This document shows positions 5,302-45,544 of a stretch of 64,000 nt of DNA, piece by piece. Location of the stretch: the NCBI RefSeq assembly GCF_002355635.1, contig NZ_AP017558.1, positions 1,364,001 to 1,428,000 of the forward strand. Reading direction: 5' to 3'. The position numbers and the translations under genes were made by a program. Position 1 is the first letter of the stretch. Each line of letters opens with the position of its first letter. A model generated the notes under the pieces. That model was given only the letters and a program-made list of their open reading frames with translations. It ran no database searches and had not been told where the DNA came from. This DNA is from Halopenitus persicus. Lineage in GTDB: Archaea > Halobacteriota > Halobacteria > Halobacteriales > Haloferacaceae.

Positions 5302-7560
5302 TCACTCCTGCGCGTCGACGACCGCGACGCCGGCGAGGTTCACGATGTCCTTGACCTCGTCGCCGCGCTGGAGGACGTGGACGGGCTCGTCCATCCCGAC
5401 GAGCATCGGGCCGATCGCCTCGGCGCCGCCGAGGCGCTGGAGCAGCTTGTAGCCGATGTTGCCGGACTCGAGGTTCGGGAAGATGAGCACGTTCGCGGGC
5501 TCGTCGAGCTCGGAGAACTCGTAGGTGTCCTCGAGGATGTCCTCGACGACGGCGGTGTCCGCCTGCATCTCGCCGTCGACCGGGAAGTCGACCTCGGGGT
5601 CGTCGTGGAGCGCCTCGACGGCCTGCCGCGGCTTGCTAGTGCCCTCGTTCTCGACGCTGCCGAAATTGGAGTAGGACAGCATCGCGGCGCGCGGCTCGAC
5701 GTTGAACCGGCGGGCCAACTCGGCGGTGTGTTTGGTCACCTCCGCGAGCACCTCCTCGTCGGGGTTCTGGTTGACCGTGGTGTCCGCACAGAACACGACC
5801 CGGTTTTTAAAGGTGAGCAGGTAGACGCCGGCGACGTGCTCGGTGTCCTCGGCCGAACCGATCACCTGCAGGGGCGGGCGCAGCGCCGAGGGGTAATGGT
5901 GGGTGAGCCCGGTGAGGAGGGCGTCCGCATCGCCGCGCTCGACCATCACGCTGCCGAGGTAGTTGGTGTCGCGGTGGACCAGCTCGCCGGCCTCGGTCCG
6001 GGTGACGCCCTTACGCTTGCGGATCTCGTGGAGCCGGTCGGCGTACGGCTCGAGGCTGCGCTCGCTGGGGTCGACGATCTCCGGCTCGAAGGAGAGGCCG
6101 AGCCGCTGGGCGGTTCGGCGGATCTCGTCGGCGTCGCCAAGCAGGACCGGCTCGGCGATCCCCTGTTCGGTCAGCTGGTAGGCCGCGCGGATCATCTTCT
6201 CGTCGGTTCCCTCCGCGAGCGCGACGCGCTTGGGGTCGCTTTTCGCCTTGTTCAACACGACGCGCATCATTTCCCGGGACTTGCCGAGCCGGGCCTCGAG
6301 GCGCTCGCGGTACTCGTCGGCGTCGACCGCGGTCCGGGCCGCCCCGGAGTCCATCGCGGCCTGTGCGACCGCCGGGGCGACCTCGAAGAGGACGCGGGGG
6401 TCGAGCGGCTTCGGGATGAGGTACTCGGGCCCGAACTGGAGCGGGTCGTCGCCGTAGGCCTTCACGACCGCATCGGGGACGTCCTGGCGCGCGAGCTCGG
6501 CCAGCGCCTCCGCCGCCGCGCGCTTCATCTCCTCGTTGATCTCGGTCGCGCGAACGTCGAGGGCGCCCCGGAACAGGAACGGGAACCCGAGGACGTTGTT
6601 CACCTGGTTCGGGTAATCCGACCGGCCGGTGGCCATGATCACCGTGTCGTCGCGGGCGGCCTTCGCGTCGTCGTAGGTGATCTCCGGGTCCGGATTGGCC
6701 ATCGCGAAGAGGATCGGGTCCGTCGCCATCGACCGGACCATCTCCTGGGAGACGATCCCGCCGACCGAGAGGCCGGCGAAGACGTCCGCGCCAGCCATCG
6801 CGTCCGCCAGGTCGCCCTCGGGAACGTCGCGCGCGAACTCGCGTTTGTACCGGTTGAGCTCGCCGTTCTCCGCGCGGGCCTCGGTGATGATCCCCGAGGA
6901 GTCACACATCGTGATGTTCTCCTTGCGGGCGCCGAGCGAGACGTAAAAGCGGGCGGTCGCGATCGCCGAGGCGCCGGCCCCGGAGAAGACGATCTCGACG
7001 TCCGCGATGTCCTTGCCGGTGACCTCGAGGGCGTTGAGCAGCGCGGCCCCGGAGATGATCGCGGTGCCGTGCTGGTCGTCGTGAAAAACGGGGATGTCCA
7101 TCCGCTCGCGGAGCCGGCTTTCGATCTCGAAGCACTCGGGCGCCTTGATGTCCTCGAGGTTGATCCCGCCGAAGGTCGGCTCCATCGCGGCGACGCTCTC
7201 GACGAACGCGTCCGGGTCGGTGATGTCCAGCTCGACGTCGAAGACGTCGATGTCGGCGAACCGCTTGAAGAGGACGCCCTTCCCCTCCATCACGGGCTTG
7301 GAGGCGCTCGCACCGATGTCGCCGAGCCCGAGCACCGCCGAGCCGTTCGAGACGACCCCGACGAGGTTCCCCTTCGCGGTGTACTCGAAGACCCGGTCGG
7401 GCTCCTCCTCGATGTCCAGACACGGGGCCGCCACGCCCGGCGAGTACGCGAGGCTCAGGTCCCGCTGGGTGTTCGTCGGCTTCGTCGTCGCGATCTCGAT
7501 CTTCCCCGGCGGCTCGCTCCGGTGGTACTCCCGCGCGTCGTCGTCCATTCCCATACTCAC
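5302..7560 (-). CDS. maeB: NADP-malic enzyme with phosphotransacetylase-like domain
   Basis: Malate dehydrogenase (oxaloacetate-decarboxylating), converting malate to pyruvate plus CO2 with NAD(P). The 752 aa protein has the malic enzyme N-terminal domain ([15 protein letters not shown] near residue 36), the NAD-binding domain with [19 protein letters not shown], and a C-terminal PTA_PTB domain from about residue 425 ([20 protein letters not shown]...). This is the usual MaeB architecture and length; in characterised members the C-terminal domain is regulatory rather than a working acetyltransferase. It is a single gene, convergent with the ATPase. Confidence 0.95.
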
Positions 7561-35864: not shown

Positions 35865-38800
35865 TCACATGAAGTCCGCGATGCCCGACTGCTTGTTGGT
35901 GTCGTCCTCGAAGACCGACTCCAGCGAGCGCTCGAGCACCTCGAGGCGCTGTTTGGTGTAGGGCCGGCAGTCGAAGCGGTCGGCGACCGCGATCGCGGTG
36001 TCCATGTACTTGTTCACCGACCCCTCGTGAACGGTGAGGTTCACCCGGCCGCCGCACTCGCGGCACTCGCCCGACAGCGGCATCCGCCGGTACTTCTCGC
36101 CGCAGTCGAGACACCGCGTCTCCTGTCTGGAGAACGCCCGGAGGTTGCCGATCAGGTCCGGCAGGAAGTGGTACTCGATGACGCGCTCTGCGACGTCGGT
36201 CTCGTCGACCGCCCGGAGCTTCCGGGCCAGCTCCAGCTGGGCGTCCATCTTGTCCATCATCGAGCCGAGCGTCTTGTACGCCGACAGGTCCGGCCCGAGC
36301 GCGATGTCGGAGGTGTCGTGGGTGTGGTCGAACCCGCGGTACTGGTCGGACGTCCCGAGCGTGTCCTCGCCGATCGTGATCGCGTCCTCGAGGTCGTCCG
36401 GGTCGGCCATCTCCAGGGTCGCCTCGTAGAACTCCCGGGGGTACTGCCGGACGATGTCCATGTTGTGCGCCTCGTCGTCGATCTCCGCGGGATCGATCCG
36501 CGAGGACATCACGAGCGGCGCGTCCATACTGCCGCCTCGTTTATCAGGAAGGAAAGATTTCGAGAAGTTCAACAACCCATCCATCAACAGCATTACGCAA
36601 TCCTCGTCGCCATCGCAGTTGCGGCGCTTCGCCGCGTGGAAATACGGGTGCGCGTAGCCGACCGCCGCGGAGGTGAAGCCGATCACGCGACCGACGGTCG
36701 CGGCGCTCGTGTGCGGGGCCATCCCGAAGACGAGCTCGCCGACGAGGTCGTCGCGCTCGTTGAGCTCATAAAAGCGCGGCAGGTCGTAGAACTCCGCGAG
36801 CAGGTCGTCGACGAAGTCGGCCGTCTTCATCATGTGCTCGGCGGCGCCGTCCGAAAGGACGACGTCCTGCACCTTCAGCTCGACCAGCTGGTCGTCGTGT
36901 CGGAGGGGTTCGCCGTCGACGTCCTCCTCGTAGCCCAGCTCCCGGAAGTGACCGACGGTCACGTCGAGCTCCGCGGGACGGACCGCGGTCACCGGCAGGT
37001 CGGTCATGTCGTACCGGACCGTCCCGTCCTTGAACGCGGTCACGTCGTTTTTCGCCCGGAGCACGCCCTTCTCGATGGGTTCGGGCGTCTTGTTCGTGGA
37101 GGTGAGCCCCTTGACCCCTTTTAATATCTCGAAGGCGGCCTCCCGCTCGCCGACCGACTCGAGGGCCGACCGATAGGCGTCGTTGAGGTCGATCTCGCGC
37201 CGGGAGACGGCCGTCACCGTGCGGTCACACCGCGGACACTCGACGCGGCCGGCCTCGTCGGGTTCACACTCGGTTCCACACTCGCGACACTCGTAGTACG
37301 GTTCGGTGTGGGACCCGCAGCCGGGGCACTCGTTGTGGAAGGTGTGCGTGCCGCAGTCGGGACACTCGCGGTCGGCGACGTCCAGTTCGATGACGCCACG
37401 GCGGCCCGAATCGTCCATTCCGCTGGCGGCGTCGGCGACGTTCCGCTGTGAGCCGCCGGCCTCGCCGATCGGGAACAGGGTGTGGACCGCCGGCGAGAGG
37501 TCGCGGCTCTCCGACTTCTCCGGACGCCCCATCCGGTTGCCGATCCGGGTCGGCGCGCGCTCGCGGACCGTGAAGGGCGCGACCTCGTTGACGGCCCGAA
37601 CCGCGTTCTTCCCGTCGGCCCAGTTCCGGGCGGCGGGCGACAGGTCCTCCCAGGTGCGCCGGAGCCCGTCGTCGACCCCGAGCGAGCGCGCCAGCGGCCG
37701 CCACTCGGGGACCCGTAGCGAGTCGGGCGTCCGGGAGTGCTCGACGAGCAGCGACTCGAGGGCGTCCGTCGTCGCCTCGGTGCGCTCGATCGCCAGGACG
37801 CCCTCGACGACATCGCCGTCGGCGACCGCGCGGGCGAGGGTCTCGAACCGCTCGACCGAGACGTCGTGCCAGAGGTAGGTGTAGGCGGGATGCAGGGGAC
37901 AGTCGTAGTCGGTGGCCCACGCGAGCGCCTCCTCGACGGTCGGGTGCTCGAGGTCGACGTGCGGGTCGTCCGACAGCGCCTGCACGTCCGCGCCCGCCGC
38001 CTCGAACTCCTGGATCCACCATTCGTACACGTAGGAGGCCGGCGCGAGGGGGTGGTTGTTCTCGATGAACTCCCCGAAGTTCACGAGGTACTCGCCCAGG
38101 TCGAGCACCTTCTCGACGCCGTTGCGGACCGCGAGCGCCTCCTCGACGTCGTCGATCCGGCGGACGTCCCCGTTCGCGAGTCGGACGGTCGGCCCCTCGA
38201 TGGAGTCGACCGGGACGACGCCCGCGGCCTTGCCCGGGCGCTCGGTCTTGATCTGCGTGCCGGTCGCGAGGAAGTCGTCGACGAGGTGCATCGTCGCCGG
38301 ATGGACGCCGGCGGTCGCGAACCCGTGGTTCCGCGACCGGCCGTATCGGAGCCGGAAGCCGCCGGCCTCCGAGGGATGCGAGAAGACCGGCCGTCCCGCG
38401 ATCAGGTCGCGCAGGTACTTGGTTGCGGGGTCGACGCGTTCGGGCCCGGCGTCGGCAGCAGTGGCGTCGGCGTCATCCACGACGCCGGTGTCAGTCGCAC
38501 CAGCATCGGTTTCGTCTGCGACGTCCGCCTCGGCAGTGGCAGCGTCGTCGGTCGAAGCGTCCGCAGCATCGGCGTCCGCATCGCCGGCGTCCGTATCGTC
38601 GGCGTCCGCATCGCCGTCCTCCTCCCCCTCCGTCCCGATCGTCCCGTCGATCAGGTCCTGGAGCCAGGGCCAGTCGACCTCCTCGAGGTCGCGGGTGTAC
38701 CGCTGTATCTTCGGGGCCTTCAGCGCGATCCCCTCGGCGAGGACCAGACACATCCCGCCCCGCGAGGAGTTCGTGTCGATGCGCTCGAGGTCCCGGAAGC

Positions 38801-39507: not shown

Positions 39508-39927
39508 TCACAGCCACAGGTCCAGGTCGGTGGTCACGTCGTGTTCGCGGACCAGCGGCTCCGCGAAGGTGCGGAGGTAGACCTCGCCGGCGAAGACGGT
39601 GGCCGAATCGAGGTGCCCCGCGAGCGCCTGCCCGCTCTCCCGCGAGAACACCGCGTGCGTGTGCGCGAAGACGTCGTCGTCGAGCCGCGCGACGTTGCCG
39701 ACGCAGGCGGCGACCTCCAGCGGCTCGTCGAAGGTGACCGACCGGTACTCGGTGTCGTCCTGGTCGTAGAACCAGATCTCGGCGTCCTGGACCGCGCCCA
39801 TCGCGTTGAACCAGCCCGCCTCGGCGTCGACCTCGCGCGCCAGGTCCTCGATCTCCGCCCGCCAGTCGGCGCCCGTCTCCAGCCGGGCGAGGTACTCCCC
39901 CGCCGACTCGACCGCTCGGTAGTGCAT
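39508..39927 (-). CDS. PPC/DUF296 domain protein
   Basis: 139 aa single PPC (plants and prokaryotes conserved) domain, a trimer-forming fold sometimes DNA-associated. Core features: LARLETGADWRAEIEDLA, GWFNAMGAVQDAEIWFYD, DDVFAHTHAVFSRESGQALAGHL (conserved His) and ATVFAGEVYLRTF. Complete at normal length. It lies 19 bases upstream of polC on the same strand and may be co-transcribed. Molecular role unknown. Confidence 0.85.
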   Translation of the reverse strand: MHYRAVESAGEYLARLETGADWRAEIEDLAREVDAEAGWFNAMGAVQDAEIWFYDQDDTEYRSVTFDEPLEVAACVGNVARLDDDVFAHTHAVFSRESGQALAGHLDSATVFAGEVYLRTFAEPLVREHDVTTDLDLWL

Positions 39928-40027
39928 ACGCGTCGATGAGGCGGGTGGCGAGGAAAAACCTTCGCCGTTCGAGTTGGGGGATCGCCGGTCGATCCGTAAC
40001 GTTCGGAGAGACGGGGGGTGCGGAACG

Positions 40028-40414
40028 TCAACGGCGCCGTTCGACTAGTTCGACGACGTACCCGTCCGGGTCACGAACGAACGCGATCCGGCTCCCGCTG
40101 GCCGCCTCCCGGGACGGTTCGGCGACGACGGGCGGATCGACCGTCTCGACGAGCCGTCGGAACGCGCCGTCGAGGTCCTCGACCCCGATGGCGACGTGTT
40201 CCCGAAGCGGAGGACCGCGTCCGTGGCGTTCCGGTGGCCGCTCCGGATGATAGGTGAACTGGATCTCCGGACCGGAACGGCCGGAAACGTAGACGTTCTC
40301 GATCCCGTCCGCTCCGGTGAACCGTTTCGACCGCTCGAACCCGAGCCCGTCCAGATAAAACTCGAGCGTGGATTCGAGGTCGGACACGGGAAACGCGACG
40401 TGTATGACGTCCAT
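40028..40414 (-). CDS. VOC-family protein (glyoxalase/bleomycin-resistance fold)
   Basis: 128 aa protein with two beta-alpha-beta-beta-beta modules: IHVAFPVSDLESTLEFYLDGLGFE at the start and REHVAIGVEDLDGAFRRL in the middle, ending RDPDGYVVELVE. Likely metal ligands are the His of IHVAF, the His of REHVAI and the Glu of VVELVE. Could be a lactoylglutathione lyase-like or dioxygenase-like enzyme; no neighbour clarifies this. It borders the accessory island. Confidence 0.85.
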   Translation of the reverse strand: MDVIHVAFPVSDLESTLEFYLDGLGFERSKRFTGADGIENVYVSGRSGPEIQFTYHPERPPERHGRGPPLREHVAIGVEDLDGAFRRLVETVDPPVVAEPSREAASGSRIAFVRDPDGYVVELVERRR

Positions 40415-41198
40415 TCGAACGGATTCTCGACGAGTCGGTTTTACTGTGACGAACGTGACGGACTCCGCCGCACCGTCGATCAGATCGGAGGGACCACTAT
40501 CTCGGAGGAGAGTTTTGATGCGTGCCTTCTATTCGACTTCACTCGTCGGCGGTGTACGCACCGGTTCGATCCGACGGACCGCAAGAATCGACTCGTCGTA
40601 GTCTACGATGCAGAAAGACGATACTGCCCAATGTGGAGTTTCGAGAACGGCCCACCAGTCAAACGCTCAACGAAGTCATCAGGGACACGCCAGAAGATTC
40701 GACGATTTCGTTGAGCTTTGAAACGCTGCGATCCTGTACATGTGTGTCAACCCCCATCGAATTGGTTCACAGCAGCGCCGACGTGTGAAGTACCGCGGGG
40801 ACAAGCCCCGCGGCTTCGCGGTTTTGACCGCACGTCCCAAACCGGGCCGTGCCGTCGCAGGCGAATGTAATTCCCCTCGACCTTCCCGTGACGGGTCGGC
40901 TGGAATTCACACCCGAACGCTCGATGCGTCCGTGAGGGTCGGCGGCTCCACCCCGCCCGACGACTCCCGTCGCACCACGCTGAAGACGTGGGTTTTGAGA
41001 GGAGTCGCATGTCCAAACCATCTCAGTCAGCGTTGGATTACGGTCTGTAATCCGTCTTTGTGGGTCTCTGACTGTACTCACTGTCCGAACCGTGGTTTGG
41101 TTAATCCTTCGACGGCCTTCACCCTCGGGTCAAGCCCCGAGGCACTCCGCCTGCTCAGCCTGTAGACGGAGTCGGGGGGAGTTCCGAGTATGGGCGGG
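40415..41198. other. 784-base gene-poor left border of the accessory island, with hairpins
   Basis: No convincing gene; short open frames are not protein-like. It contains perfect hairpins CCGCGGGG-ACAAG-CCCCGCGG (40791-40811), GCGGT-TTTG-ACCGC (40816-40829), CCACG-CTGAAGA-CGTGG (40975-40991 region) and CCTCGGG-TCAAGC-CCCGAGG (41123-41142). The shared CAAGCCCC motif also occurs at the right end of the intact TnpB element (57265-57272), suggesting degraded IS200/IS605 ends. Confidence 0.4.
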
Positions 41199-41954
41199 TT
41201 ATCGGCCGATCGTTCCTTGATAGGTGAGTGGTGCGTCGGGATTAATCAGGAAGGCCACGAGCAGTGTTTCTTCCTGCGCGCTGACGGTCAGATCGGTTGC
41301 GTTGACGAGCAGCCCGCTTTCCGTCCTGTCGAAGGTGGTGTCATTGGCTTCGACCGCGCCATCAAAGACATAGAAGTACGTATGCCATCCCTCGATTGCG
41401 GGGAGTTGGACACTGGTTCCCGCGTCAAGTTGCACGTCATAGAAGTTGACGTCATTGCGTACGTAGAACGGCGCGTCCGACTCCTCCGGGCCGAAGAGAT
41501 GTCGCCACTCGTTGGTGACGGGCTCCGGAACGGACCCATGTTGGATAGTCGGGTCAAGATCGACAGTGTGTGGTCGGACGAAGATCTGCAAGAGCCGCAG
41601 CTGTGGATCATCGTCGAGGGTTTGCTCCTCGTGCCAGAAGGCGCTGCCAGCGTTCATCACCATCAGGTGGTCGGAGTCTATGACTAACTCGTTCCCCGCT
41701 CGGTCCTTGTGACGCATTATACCGGTCGGGACGTAGGAAACGATCTCGTCGTTCTGATGGGGGTGCATCGAAACGAACGTGCCGGGGTCCAGAAAGGCCT
41801 CGTCAATGCGCGCCAGCGGACCGTAGCCGTGGTCGTCGTGGTCCGGCAGGTTTCGCCCGGGGTAGTTCGAGTGGATCCTGAACTTTCCCTGATTCTGCGA
41901 GATGTCCGTGCGTGGGGCCTTGTAGAGTTCTGTGTTGAGGGTGTTCCCTGTCAT
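41199..41954 (-). CDS. Pirin-family cupin protein
   Basis: 251 aa two-cupin pirin homologue. Iron ligands match the pirin set: His64 and His66 in [12 protein letters not shown], His108 and Glu110 in FWHEEQ. Pirins are quercetinase-like dioxygenases or redox-dependent regulators. The protein contains no cysteine. Its ATG overlaps the stop of the EF-1A gene (ATGA, 41951-41954), so the two are translationally coupled. A link to oxidative or electrophile stress is inferred from the coupled genes and the HxlR regulator. Confidence 0.9.
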
Positions 41955-43225
41955 TCGTCCCGCTCCGTGATTTCAAGGACCTTGCCAGCGGCGATGGTCT
42001 GACCCATATCGCGGACCGCGAACGAACCGAGCTCCGGTATCTCGGAGGACGGCTCGATGCTGAGTGGCTTCTGTGGGCGCACGGTGACGACCGCGGCGTC
42101 ACCGGACTTGATGAAGTCGGGGTTCTCCTCGGCGACCTCGCCAGAGGCCGGGTCGATCTTCTGGTCGATCGACTCGATCGTACACGCGACCTGCGTGGTG
42201 TGCGCATGGAAGACCGGCGTATAGCCCGCGGTGATGACCGACGGGTGCTGCATGACGACGATCTGTGCGGTGAACGTGTCGGCGACTGTCGGCGGGTCGT
42301 CGATGGGGCCGGCAACGTCGCCGCGGCGGATGTCGTCCTTGCCGACACCCCGGACGTTGAATCCGACGTTGTCACCGGGCTCGGCCTGGTCGACTTCCTC
42401 GTGGTGCATCTCAATTGTCTTCACCTCGCCACCGACGTCAGAGGGCTGGAAGCTGACGTTGTCACCCGTATTGAGCATCCCCGTTTCGACGCGGCCCACC
42501 GGCACGGTCCCGATGCCCGAGATCGTGTAGACATCCTGAATGGGGAGGCGCAGTGGCGCGTCCGTCGGCGGGGACGGCTCCGGCAGGTTGTTGAGCGCTT
42601 CAACGAGGGTTTCTTCGTTGTACCACGGCGTGTTGTCCGACGGTTCTGAGACGTTGTCACCCTCGAAGGCGGAGGTCGGAATGAATCTCGTGTCCTCGAT
42701 ATTGAAGCGAACCTGGTTCAGGAGTTCCTTGATCTCGTCAACGGTCGAGCGGTAGCGGTCTTCCTCGTAGTCGACGAGGTCCATCTTGTTGACCGCGACG
42801 ATGAGTTCGTCGATGCCGAGGGTCCGCGAGAGAAAGACGTGTTCCTGGGTCTGGGGTTGGACGCCGTCATCAGCCGCAACGATGAGGACGGCGTGGTCGG
42901 CCTGGCTCGCACCTGTAATCATATTCTTGACGAAGTCGCGGTGCCCAGGTGTATCGACGATAGTAAAGTCGTACGTATCCGTCGAGAACTCCTGGTGGGC
43001 AATATCGATGGTGACGCCGCGCTCGCGTTCCTCGGCGAGGTTGTCCATGACGTAGGCGAACTCGAACCCGCCCTTGCCCTTCTCTTCGGCTTCCTCGCGG
43101 TGCTGTTCGATGACGTGCTCGGGGACGCTCCCCGTCTCGTAGAGGAGTCGTCCCACGAGCGTGCTCTTTCCGTGGTCGACGTGACCGATGATGGCCAGGT
43201 TTTGATGGGGTTTGTCAGTACTCAC
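41951..43225 (-). CDS. Translation elongation factor EF-1A paralogue in an accessory context
   Basis: Complete 424 aa EF-1A GTPase, which delivers aminoacyl-tRNA to the ribosome. All G motifs are present: GHVDHGKS (14-21), DTPGH (91-95), NKMD (146-149), SAFEG (185-189), plus full domains 2 and 3. It starts at GTG 43225, after a minus-strand AGTATTTAGG box near 43251-43260. No ribosomal genes follow, unlike the standard EF-1A locus; a pirin gene does. It has only one cysteine (Cys348). The positions I remember as Cys in normal haloarchaeal EF-1A, DCPGH and DVCGP, are Thr92 and Ala305. I infer a specialised second copy. Confidence 0.9.
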
Positions 43226-43265
43226 TGTGGTCCCAACTACGATGTTGGAACCTAAATACTACCAA

Positions 43266-43285
43266 GTTAGAAGTATGGTTGTAAC
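43266..43285. promoter_or_regulatory. Imperfect palindrome in the EF-1A/hxlR divergent promoter
   Basis: GTTAGAAGTATGGTTGTAAC matches its own reverse complement at 14 of 20 positions. It lies just upstream of the EF-1A TATA box (43251-43260, minus strand) and before the hxlR gene, whose own box CATAAATA is at 43352-43359. HxlR dimers bind such sites, so this is a candidate operator. Confidence 0.5.
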
Positions 43286-43379
43286 TTCCACATCTGGAAG
43301 GAACGATGGGGTTCTCGAATGCATCAGCGCAGACAATACCGTCCAGAACACACATAAATACGAAAGTCGTAGTAAAGAT

Positions 43380-43742
43380 ATGAGCGAATCTGAGATGGCG
43401 GCCGAACCGAAATACGATGGAGCAGTCGATGGCCGTGAGTTCTTCTCCCTGCTTGGAAAGGCACACACCATGGCCATCCTCCGAAAAATTGTCCTTGGAG
43501 ACGATCAGCCAGCTCGGTTTGGGGAGATTAAGAAATCGCTTTCACTCTCGCCCAATACCCTCTCACGGCGCCTTGACGAACTCGTAGCCGCCGGGCTGCT
43601 TCAGAGAACGCAGTACGACGAGATTCCCCCGCGCGTGGAGTACGAGACGACCGAAATGCTGGATGATCTCGAACCGACCTTCCGAGAGTTGGAAACCTGG
43701 ATGGAGCAATACGGAGCAGAAGACCTTGGATGTCCTGAGTGA
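43380..43742 (+). CDS. HxlR-family transcription regulator
   Basis: 120 aa winged-helix regulator: GREFFSLLGKAHTMAILRKIVLG, RFGEIKKSLSLSPNTLSRRLDEL (recognition helix) and VEYETTEMLDDLEPTFREL are typical. Its only cysteine is Cys118, two residues from the end, rather than the N-terminal redox Cys of YodB/HypR. Divergent from the EF-1A/pirin pair with a shared 154-base promoter region, so it likely controls that operon. The CATAAATA box at 43352-43359 supports a leaderless ATG 43380. Confidence 0.88.
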   Translation: MSESEMAAEPKYDGAVDGREFFSLLGKAHTMAILRKIVLGDDQPARFGEIKKSLSLSPNTLSRRLDELVAAGLLQRTQYDEIPPRVEYETTEMLDDLEPTFRELETWMEQYGAEDLGCPE

Positions 43743-44270
43743 ACGGAGAACGAAGAGACGAAGAACGCCGTCCGTGTTGAAAAGTACCACAGAGCAGTCG
43801 TACCCTGAGAATGAGACGATCACACCACGGACGCCGTGATCGCCCCTCAACCGCGACTACATCGCTGCAGGGAGGACCCCAATCCGTGAAAGGGAGCAGT
43901 GGGTCGTGTTGCTCGCCTCTGGTTCGTGACCCGCCTGACTGAGCGACTGAACGTGTACTGGGATCGTCGCTAGAGAGTGGTAACGCTGATCAGTATCGCT
44001 AGGGCCCATACAATTTCTCACGCATGCTTGATAGTAACGTCAACGAGAGTTCGAGATGGACGCTTGATCGGTGAGAAGAACCACGAATCGACGGAGATTC
44101 GACCCAAAACTAGCCCATCCTCCGAAACTGTGGAGGGACGCGGGAAGAAATTGTATATCGCGGTATATGATTTATAAACGGACGGGGAAACGGTCCATCC
44201 ATCGACGGCTAACAACGGCCATTGGCGGGATACCGTCGACCTCGGCGCGTCAGGCGCGGGATCGGGCCGG
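43743..44270. other. 528-base AT-richer intergenic stretch
   Basis: No gene seen. Positions 44151-44180 hold an ATATCGCGGTATATGATTTATAAAC segment-type promoter (TATA at 44170-44176) that recurs in inverted orientation at 44704-44730, flanking the Hsp20 pseudogene. Confidence 0.45.
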
Positions 44271-44575
44271 TCAGCTCTCGATCGGGATCCGGTTCCGTTG
44301 ACGGCGCACCCGCACGGTAGCCGGACCTCGAGGATTCCGTTGGCGGACTCGGCGCTGATCGACTCGTCGTGGACGTCCTTCGGGAAGCGGCGATGGGAGG
44401 TTCGACGGTGCGGCGGGCGTCCGCGTGGTCGGCCGCGACGGTGAGCACCCCTCGTTCCACGAGACGGTCATCCCCTCGGGGGCGAAGCCCGGCAACCCGA
44501 CGTGAGGACGAACGCGTCGTCCTCCTCGTACAGTTCGGAGTCGTTACTCCCCGTTGAACCAGTCGGCAGCGCCAT
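44271..44575 (-). pseudogene. Hsp20/alpha-crystallin small heat-shock protein pseudogene
   Basis: Reading the minus strand from ATG 44575 gives MALPTGSTGSNDSELYEEDDAFVLT, the normal start of haloarchaeal Hsp20 but with part of the N-terminal region missing. A frame change then gives GLPGFAPEGMTVSWNEG, another gives GVLTVAADHADARRT, and a third gives HRRFPKDVHDESIS and NGILEVRLP, the alpha-crystallin signature; RIPIES appears in yet another frame at the end. At least three frameshifts, for example a lost G in a GGGG run before GTGCTCACC, so no functional product is expected. Confidence 0.8.
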
Positions 44576-44605
44576 AGCTGACCACCGTTGAGTATTTGCG
44601 GAGAA

Positions 44606-44660
44606 TCAAGGAGAAAGCCGCGCTTCAGCGCGGGGAGGATGTCAAGCGTGGCTTGAACGA
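44606..44660 (+). other. Orphan IS200/IS605-like right-end hairpin
   Basis: AAAGCCGCGCTTCAGCGCGG GGAGGATGTCA: a perfect CCGCGC-TTCA-GCGCGG hairpin at 44618-44633 followed by GGAGGATGTCA. This is, from memory, the kind of sequence seen at right ends of haloarchaeal IS200/IS605 (TnpB) elements. No transposase gene is attached, so it would be a relic. Confidence 0.4.
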
Positions 44661-44788
44661 GACGGGCGTTTCGACGGTCACCGCCGATGGTCGGTTGGAG
44701 GACCGATATAAATCACATACCGCAATATCAATTCACCCGGAGCCACCCCAACCGGCCGTTTCAAGACGCTGCCGGACGACCGGCGCGT

Positions 44789-45544
44789 GTGAGCGAGGAC
44801 ACGGAGCGATCGGCGGAACGAACCGGCTACGGTGAGGCGCTCCTGACCGCCGACGGCGTGGAGTTCGGCGAGCGTGACGCCGCCCTCCTTCGGACGATCG
44901 ACCGAACGGGATCGGTCGCGACCGCGAGCGCGGAGCTCGAACGGTCCCGGGCGCGTGCGCTCACGCGGATCGAGACGCTCGAGGAGGCCTTCGGGACCCT
45001 CGTGGAGCGGACGCGGGGCGGCAGCGGCGGCGGCGGAAGCCGACTGACCGCGGCCGCCGAGACGCTGTTGACGCGATACGGCCGGCTGCAAGCCGCACTG
45101 ACCGCCGCGGCGCAAGTCCCCGAAACCGTCCTCGAGGGAACGGTGACCGACGTCGACGGGGAACTGGCGACGGCGAAGACGCCCGTCGGCGAGGTGCGAG
45201 CGCTTCGGGATCGGGCGGCGGTCGGGGACACGGTGCAGCTTCGGATCGGCGCGGACGCGGTCACGCTGTCGGCGGTCGGCGAGGCGTCGGATCCGGATTC
45301 GACGAGCGCAAGGAACCGGGTTCGGGGAACCGTGACCGGCGTCGATCCGGGAGCGACGGTGCGAACCGTGACGGTCGACGTCGACGGGACGACGGTCAGC
45401 GCGCTCGTGACCGCCGAGAGCGCGGCGCGGCTATCGCTGGCCGGGGGACGGGACGTCGTCGTGACCTGGAAGGCGACCGCGACGCGGATGGTGCCGGTTC
45501 GATCGGCGGCGAACGGGTGGAAAAGCGGCGCCAGCGAGCGCTAG
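44789..45544 (+). CDS. ModE-like regulator: winged helix plus TOBE domains
   Basis: 251 aa protein. The N-terminal LysR/ModE-type helix-turn-helix reads DAALLRTIDRTGSVATASAE and RARALTRIETLEEAFGTLVE; a Gly-rich loop follows (GGSGGGGSRLT). The C-terminal part has two molybdate-binding TOBE/Mop-like segments: VLEGTVTDVDGELATAKTPVG and VRGTVTGVDPGATVRTVTVDV. Probably a molybdate- or tungstate-responsive regulator; no mod transporter is nearby. I use GTG 44789, as the TATA-like GATATAAAT at 44705-44712 lies downstream of the ATG at 44687. It ends four bases past the DUF424 stop on the other strand. Confidence 0.8.
   Translation: MSEDTERSAERTGYGEALLTADGVEFGERDAALLRTIDRTGSVATASAELERSRARALTRIETLEEAFGTLVERTRGGSGGGGSRLTAAAETLLTRYGRLQAALTAAAQVPETVLEGTVTDVDGELATAKTPVGEVRALRDRAAVGDTVQLRIGADAVTLSAVGEASDPDSTSARNRVRGTVTGVDPGATVRTVTVDVDGTTVSALVTAESAARLSLAGGRDVVVTWKATATRMVPVRSAANGWKSGASER

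Follow-up and report, generated by a model that had tools for sequence, protein, structure and literature searches.

The closest described relative of the gene discussed here is probably hsp5, a haloarchaeal gene of the Hsp20/alpha-crystallin family. In a review, hsp5 is said to need no more than its BRE and TATA box for the heat response in haloarchaea. The gene carries the number 6201, with cdc48d at 6199, in the excerpted text of PMC1971269. A second point of comparison comes from Haloquadratum, where 52-bp "terminal-only" PATEs are described, in the excerpt of PMC3119063, as arising by deletion between two palindromes. Here, we analyzed a stretch of 64,000 nucleotides from Halopenitus persicus (the window; features in Table 1). 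It very probably holds, at positions 44271-44575, a dead hsp20 gene that has lost its promoter, has a PATE in its promoter region, and derives from an intact ancestor shared with a congener, G001. Judged by sequence comparison, this is a case of ordinary gene decay.

Table 1. Features of the hsp20 locus (window positions) and, in the last row, close facing pairs of the palindromic element elsewhere (G000 is the genome of the window).
Feature	Coordinates	Strand	Remarks
PPC/DUF296 gene	39508..39927	-	intact; left flank of the locus in congeners; no indels relative to G001
Island: VOC protein, PATE-like repeat, pirin, EF-1A, HxlR regulator	39969..44139		between PPC/DUF296 and hsp20; right edge approximate
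Left copy of TATYGCGGTATRTGATTTAT element	44156..44175	+	faces the 3' end of hsp20; 4 mismatches in each congener
hsp20 pseudogene	44271..44575	-	ATG kept at 44575-44573; 305 nt, 372 in G001
Decayed solo IS605-type terminal-only PATE	44596..44645	+	TTGC plus 46 nt ending in TCAA; where G001 has the hsp20 core promoter
Right copy of palindromic promoter-type element TATYGCGGTATRTGATTTAT	44708..44727	-	between hsp20 and TOBE; 0 mismatches in G001, 4 in G002
TOBE/HTH gene	44789..45544	+	intact; right flank of the conserved locus; no indels relative to G001
Close facing pairs	G000:C1:1892938/1893944; G001:C25:326703/327691; G002:C27:203941/204929; G023:C1:175485/176166; G025:C2:63717/63927		

The value of the locus lies in a clean comparison, because the same slot in three Halopenitus genomes holds an intact hsp20 (G001), a broken one (the window) and none (G002). 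An intact version of the locus could thus be found in a relative and aligned: on contig C18 of G001, between the PPC/DUF296 and TOBE genes, lies an hsp20 gene whose 123-aa product is a 100% match to a protein of Halopenitus persicus DC30. In G002, both flanking genes are kept and no hsp20 was found at the slot (best tblastn E value 0.048), nor an ortholog elsewhere in that genome, where the best match has 41% identity. Identity to the window across the DNA polymerase region is 94.6% for G001 and 90.6% for G002, which makes G001 the nearer of the two. The gene may either have been gained in the common ancestor of the window and G001 or have been lost in G002. Among 24 TOBE loci (of 27, three fragment rows being omitted), scanned with about 1.5 kb of flank each, the DUF296-TOBE neighborhood occurs in G001 and G002 only, the window locus having an island between the two genes. 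In both congeners, the large DNA polymerase D gene contains an additional block (L025:7643-8412), about 770 bp long in G001 and 680 bp in G002, that is missing from the window at about 36615-36622 and is possibly an intein.

An hsp20 pseudogene with several frameshifts had been proposed from the letters of the window alone, and the comparison with G001 confirms it. The two genes align in synteny with 85.7% DNA identity over 321 columns, the window copy being 67 nt shorter. Its in-frame losses are of 48, 6 and 6 nt, and the frame is shifted by at least four further deletions (1, 1, 4 and 1 nt), the gap placement varying with the alignment (e.g., 5 + 1 for one of the 6-nt deletions). The 48-nt deletion is near the start of the gene, and the N-terminal part deleted in the window is present in seven other aligned orthologs, which places the loss on the window's side. 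The pieces of the alpha-crystallin domain that had been seen in order in three minus-strand frames were recovered by tblastn with the 123-aa G001 protein: residues 1-117 at 44575-44291 (minus strand, with gaps and one stop; E = 4.8e-20), residues 42-60 in a second frame at 44501-44445 and residues 58-72 in a third at 44454-44410 (both on the minus strand, E = 7e-8), these E values referring to a small target of two short stretches. The same protein searched against the whole genome gives E = 5.9e-19 at the locus. The domain remains recognizable enough to assign the pseudogene to the Hsp20 family, with a Pfam HSP20 score of 26.5 bits (cutoff 20.8) for window pieces joined by hand across the breaks. 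In the Hsp20 family search of the own genome, the locus is absent from the matches. With at least four frameshifts and no core promoter, it does not have the single open frame and promoter of a working hsp20 gene. Four other PF00011 matches exist in the genome, none with inner stops, and the cell may tolerate the loss of hsp20 because these other members of the family remain. An Rfam scan of the locus yielded no score close to gathering (one match, E = 0.92), and no tRNA was found between 39500 and 46000.

The pattern of substitutions is less telling. Differences from G001 at first, second and third codon positions number 2, 12 and 10 in the body of the pseudogene (7, 17 and 14 if the badly aligned start is included) and 19, 14 and 61 in TOBE. 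The third-position bias is weaker in hsp20 than in TOBE, with a Fisher p of 0.06 that is not decisive. Full neutrality would give evenness over the codon positions, and the hsp20 differences are uneven (p = 0.02), with first positions low. Hence, the codon measure alone is no proof of neutrality.

The decay extends to the promoter. In G001, the segment TTTATTACGAACCGC stands 34 nt before the hsp20 start, matching at 15/15 positions the pattern that we derived from this genome after its recurrence upstream of orthologs had been noticed. We searched for it in 34 of 47 ortholog loci, the other 13 being dropped (the record of G001 itself, and loci with a partial start or insufficient DNA upstream). 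It reaches at least 10/15 within the last 80 nt in 32 of the 34, with 30 placed 28-36 nt before the start and most at 33-36 nt, and at least 12/15 in 20; among 3400 shuffled sequences, 181 reach 10 and 3 reach 12. The best match in the 140 nt upstream of the window gene is 10/15 at 122 nt, which is equaled by 90 of 1000 shuffles, and the last 130 nt offer no more than 8. By this measure, the core promoter is absent from the window hsp20. Since the BRE and TATA box of hsp5 reportedly suffice for the heat response, the loss of this segment should silence the gene.

Part of the place of the core promoter is taken by the element at 44596-44645, which recurs in the genome with unrelated flanks, as three intact solo copies and one decayed copy on contig C2. 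Each intact copy fuses the left and right ends of a tnpB element at C1:898921-901177 (L029), whose ends are likely the parent of the solo PATEs. Its tnpB pieces carry OrfB_IS605 and Cas12f1-like TNB domains, and it is interrupted by an ORF with a DDE-transposase match just under the cutoff (26.4 vs 27 bits). With a left and a right end fused in one palindrome and no transposase, the solo elements have the structure that defines a terminal-only PATE of the IS605 type. The window copy differs from the intact form by TTGC instead of TTAC at the left edge and by two missing hairpin bases. The tetranucleotides TTAC, AAAG, GAAT and TCAA are reminiscent of the rules of IS608. The excerpt of PMC12558985, consulted for short solo elements, held nothing applicable.

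These observations suggest the following history. The common ancestor of the window and G001 would have carried a whole hsp20 at the slot, transcribed leftwards from a core promoter of its own some 34 nt ahead of the start codon. In the window lineage, as the comparison shows, a 50-nt non-autonomous IS605-type element now lies in the promoter region, the core promoter is gone, and the coding part has gathered in-frame and frameshifting deletions. The promoter would have disappeared with the arrival of the PATE, in a deletion-coupled insertion, and this loss may have been the first event.

The sequence-only reading had also drawn attention to inverted copies of a promoter-like segment on either side of the gene. 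They are real (22 nt, 91% complementary), and promoter-like is an apt description, since the same element occurs 55-61 nt upstream of rio2. At up to 3 mismatches, the 20-base TATYGCGGTATRTGATTTAT pattern drawn from these copies occurs 8 times in the own genome and its reversed control not at all. The left copy lies upstream of PPC/DUF296, at about 120 nt in G001 and 170 nt in G002, and is 4.2 kb from it in the window, where the island lies between. The right copy precedes hsp20 by 115 nt in G001; it precedes TOBE by about 60 nt in G001 and the window and by about 320 nt in G002. We dropped the idea that the copies are the terminal repeats of one insertion: such scars should be missing where the insertion is missing, and both copies are found in G001, which has neither island nor PATE here, and in G002, which has no hsp20 at the slot. 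We also dropped the idea that they are the usual promoter of hsp20. In 43 upstream regions of orthologs (of 47 loci), the pattern was found at fewer than 6 mismatches in the G001 record only, and the orthologs share a different core promoter, so that the right copy is not the conserved proximal promoter of hsp20.

The element is better characterized upstream of rio2. In a sample of the best 30 of 59 genomes' RIO2 loci, of which 28 allowed the start to be placed, a version close to ATTYTATATCGCGGTATGTGATTTAT was found at up to 5 mismatches in 15 regions, the own genome among them, and not in the other 13. All 15 have the same orientation, 13 of them lie 55-61 nt before the start, and they come from haloarchaea of several families; one of 560 shuffles does as well. 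This fixed placement argues that the TATYGCGGTATRTGATTTAT/ATTYTATATCGCGGTATGTGATTTAT sequence is a real element of promoter type, as far as sequence can tell. When 60 genomes were searched with a near-identical pattern at up to 2 mismatches, 38 of them, the own included, had matches, and the control had none in any. The own-genome copy upstream of rio2 is at L039:3426-3445 (G000:C1:1893925-1893944). In the match lists of the own genome and the 60 genomes, six pairs are closer than 1.1 kb, including the one around hsp20, and all are facing, with the plus copy first and then the minus copy. One copy of the rio2 pair is at the very 3' end of rio2 in three Halopenitus genomes. Among the matches listed, the literature on Halopenitus genomes and Haloferax rio2 promoters gave nothing on the hsp20 gene or the motif, which is no proof of absence. 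The rio2 element deserves separate work and could matter more than the decay of hsp20.

These facing copies raise an alternative: the locus could be kept as a non-coding or antisense unit, in which they would drive convergent transcripts and hsp20 would be dispensable. We consider this unlikely. Both copies do persist in G002, where hsp20 is gone. A scan of 20.0 kb of G001 allowing up to 6 mismatches, and one of 15.5 kb of G002 allowing up to 5, turned up these two copies and no others. The presence of the element upstream of rio2 in 15 of the 28 loci and the recurrence of close facing pairs point in the same direction. However, the left copy, with its mismatches in both congeners, may simply belong to the PPC/DUF296 gene, and BLAST detects nothing else of significant similarity in the G002 interval that the two copies bound, so that the sequence between them is not kept. 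It is quite improbable that the facing copies form a regulatory unit that marks the PPC/DUF296-TOBE slot in the three Halopenitus genomes and outlives hsp20; convergent or antisense transcription would then have carried the gene as a passenger or have targeted it.

The preferred reading, the decay of a once intact gene, would be mistaken if hsp20 were really whole and its frameshifts were base-calling errors or faults of assembly. Several of the lesions are single-base deletions, which would suit such errors, but these would leave the 48-nt deletion, the 4- and 6-nt deletions and the replaced promoter region to be explained. Furthermore, three neighboring genes (TOBE, PPC/DUF296 and DUF424) have no indels relative to G001, and when 13 mechanical reading frames of G001 were compared with the window, hsp20 alone was split over several frames. 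One or two stops occur in four of the other 12, and from our reading of the contexts they fall before the likely start or in spurious-looking frames. We regard an error of this kind as very improbable.

It had further been suggested that the pseudogene belongs to an island of stress genes in decay, or that the site has suffered repeated insertion. The island, of 4.2 kb, has a GC content of 52-65% over most of its length; that of the genes flanking it is about 70-73%. It is absent at the slot in both congeners: G001 has 233 bp in its place (less the left element copy), and nothing of it aligns at the G002 locus. Located past the 3' end of hsp20, it does not cut the gene. That hsp20 arrived with this island, the whole of which would now be decaying, has next to no credibility, even though about 130 nt separate the end of the pseudogene from the estimated edge, because G001 has the intact gene in a slot without the island (unless it was lost there without trace) and the island's EF-1A, pirin and VOC protein have open frames that encode their domains. 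The insertion of the island is, on this comparison, an event separate from the decay of hsp20. The suggestion of repeated insertion holds in part: two unrelated insertions flank or invade the gene, one being the solo PATE towards the promoter and the other the island, but the inverted copies are not their traces, since both congeners have the copies and neither insertion.

Within 41199-43742, a second EF-1A gene overlaps the pirin gene by 4 nt and is divergent from the HxlR regulator; a related divergent EF-1A/HxlR pair is found on contig C11 of G002, with no pirin match seen beside it. At 40785-41167, the island contains a multi-copy repeat of about 380 bp, with a 99% match over 176 bases elsewhere in the genome, matches in 46 plasmid records and a weak match to a sot2652-like RNA (31.2 bits; gathering score 61). 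This repeat is probably a PATE derived from a tnpB element.

How does the locus compare with the known systems? The G001 protein is 72% identical to a protein of Halobacterium salinarum DSM 3754 whose gene is 60 nt before a Cdc48 gene. This arrangement fits the numbers 6201 and 6199 in the excerpt of PMC1971269, so we infer that the protein is Hsp5. Like hsp5, which has the segment at 12/15 and 35 nt, the G001 gene has a similar core promoter at the same distance. Unlike in hsp5, no cdc48 was found within the 6 kb examined downstream in the G001 record (L082), and the window gene is broken and promoterless. Across the 47 ortholog loci, cdc48 is present in 16, within 200 nt on the same strand in 13, and was not found in 31, some of which have little downstream DNA. 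Where the ortholog is directly before cdc48 (L083, L085, L105 and others, 13 of 47), the two form a chaperone-unfoldase pair that is missing at the G001 locus.

The element in the promoter region resembles the terminal-only PATEs of Haloquadratum, as excerpted in PMC3119063, in its length of about 50 bp (52 there), its fused ends, its single palindrome, the lack of a transposase and the presence of solo copies at several sites. The likeness is one of structure, and the likely parent here is a tnpB element of the own genome. As in the deletion-coupled insertions of Haloquadratum described there (PMC3119063), new sequence stands in place of lost sequence. Unlike those, our case consists of one site and one gene-bearing sister genome, so insertion and deletion may be separate events. 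It shows, beside these systems, a solo PATE in the promoter region of a dead gene.
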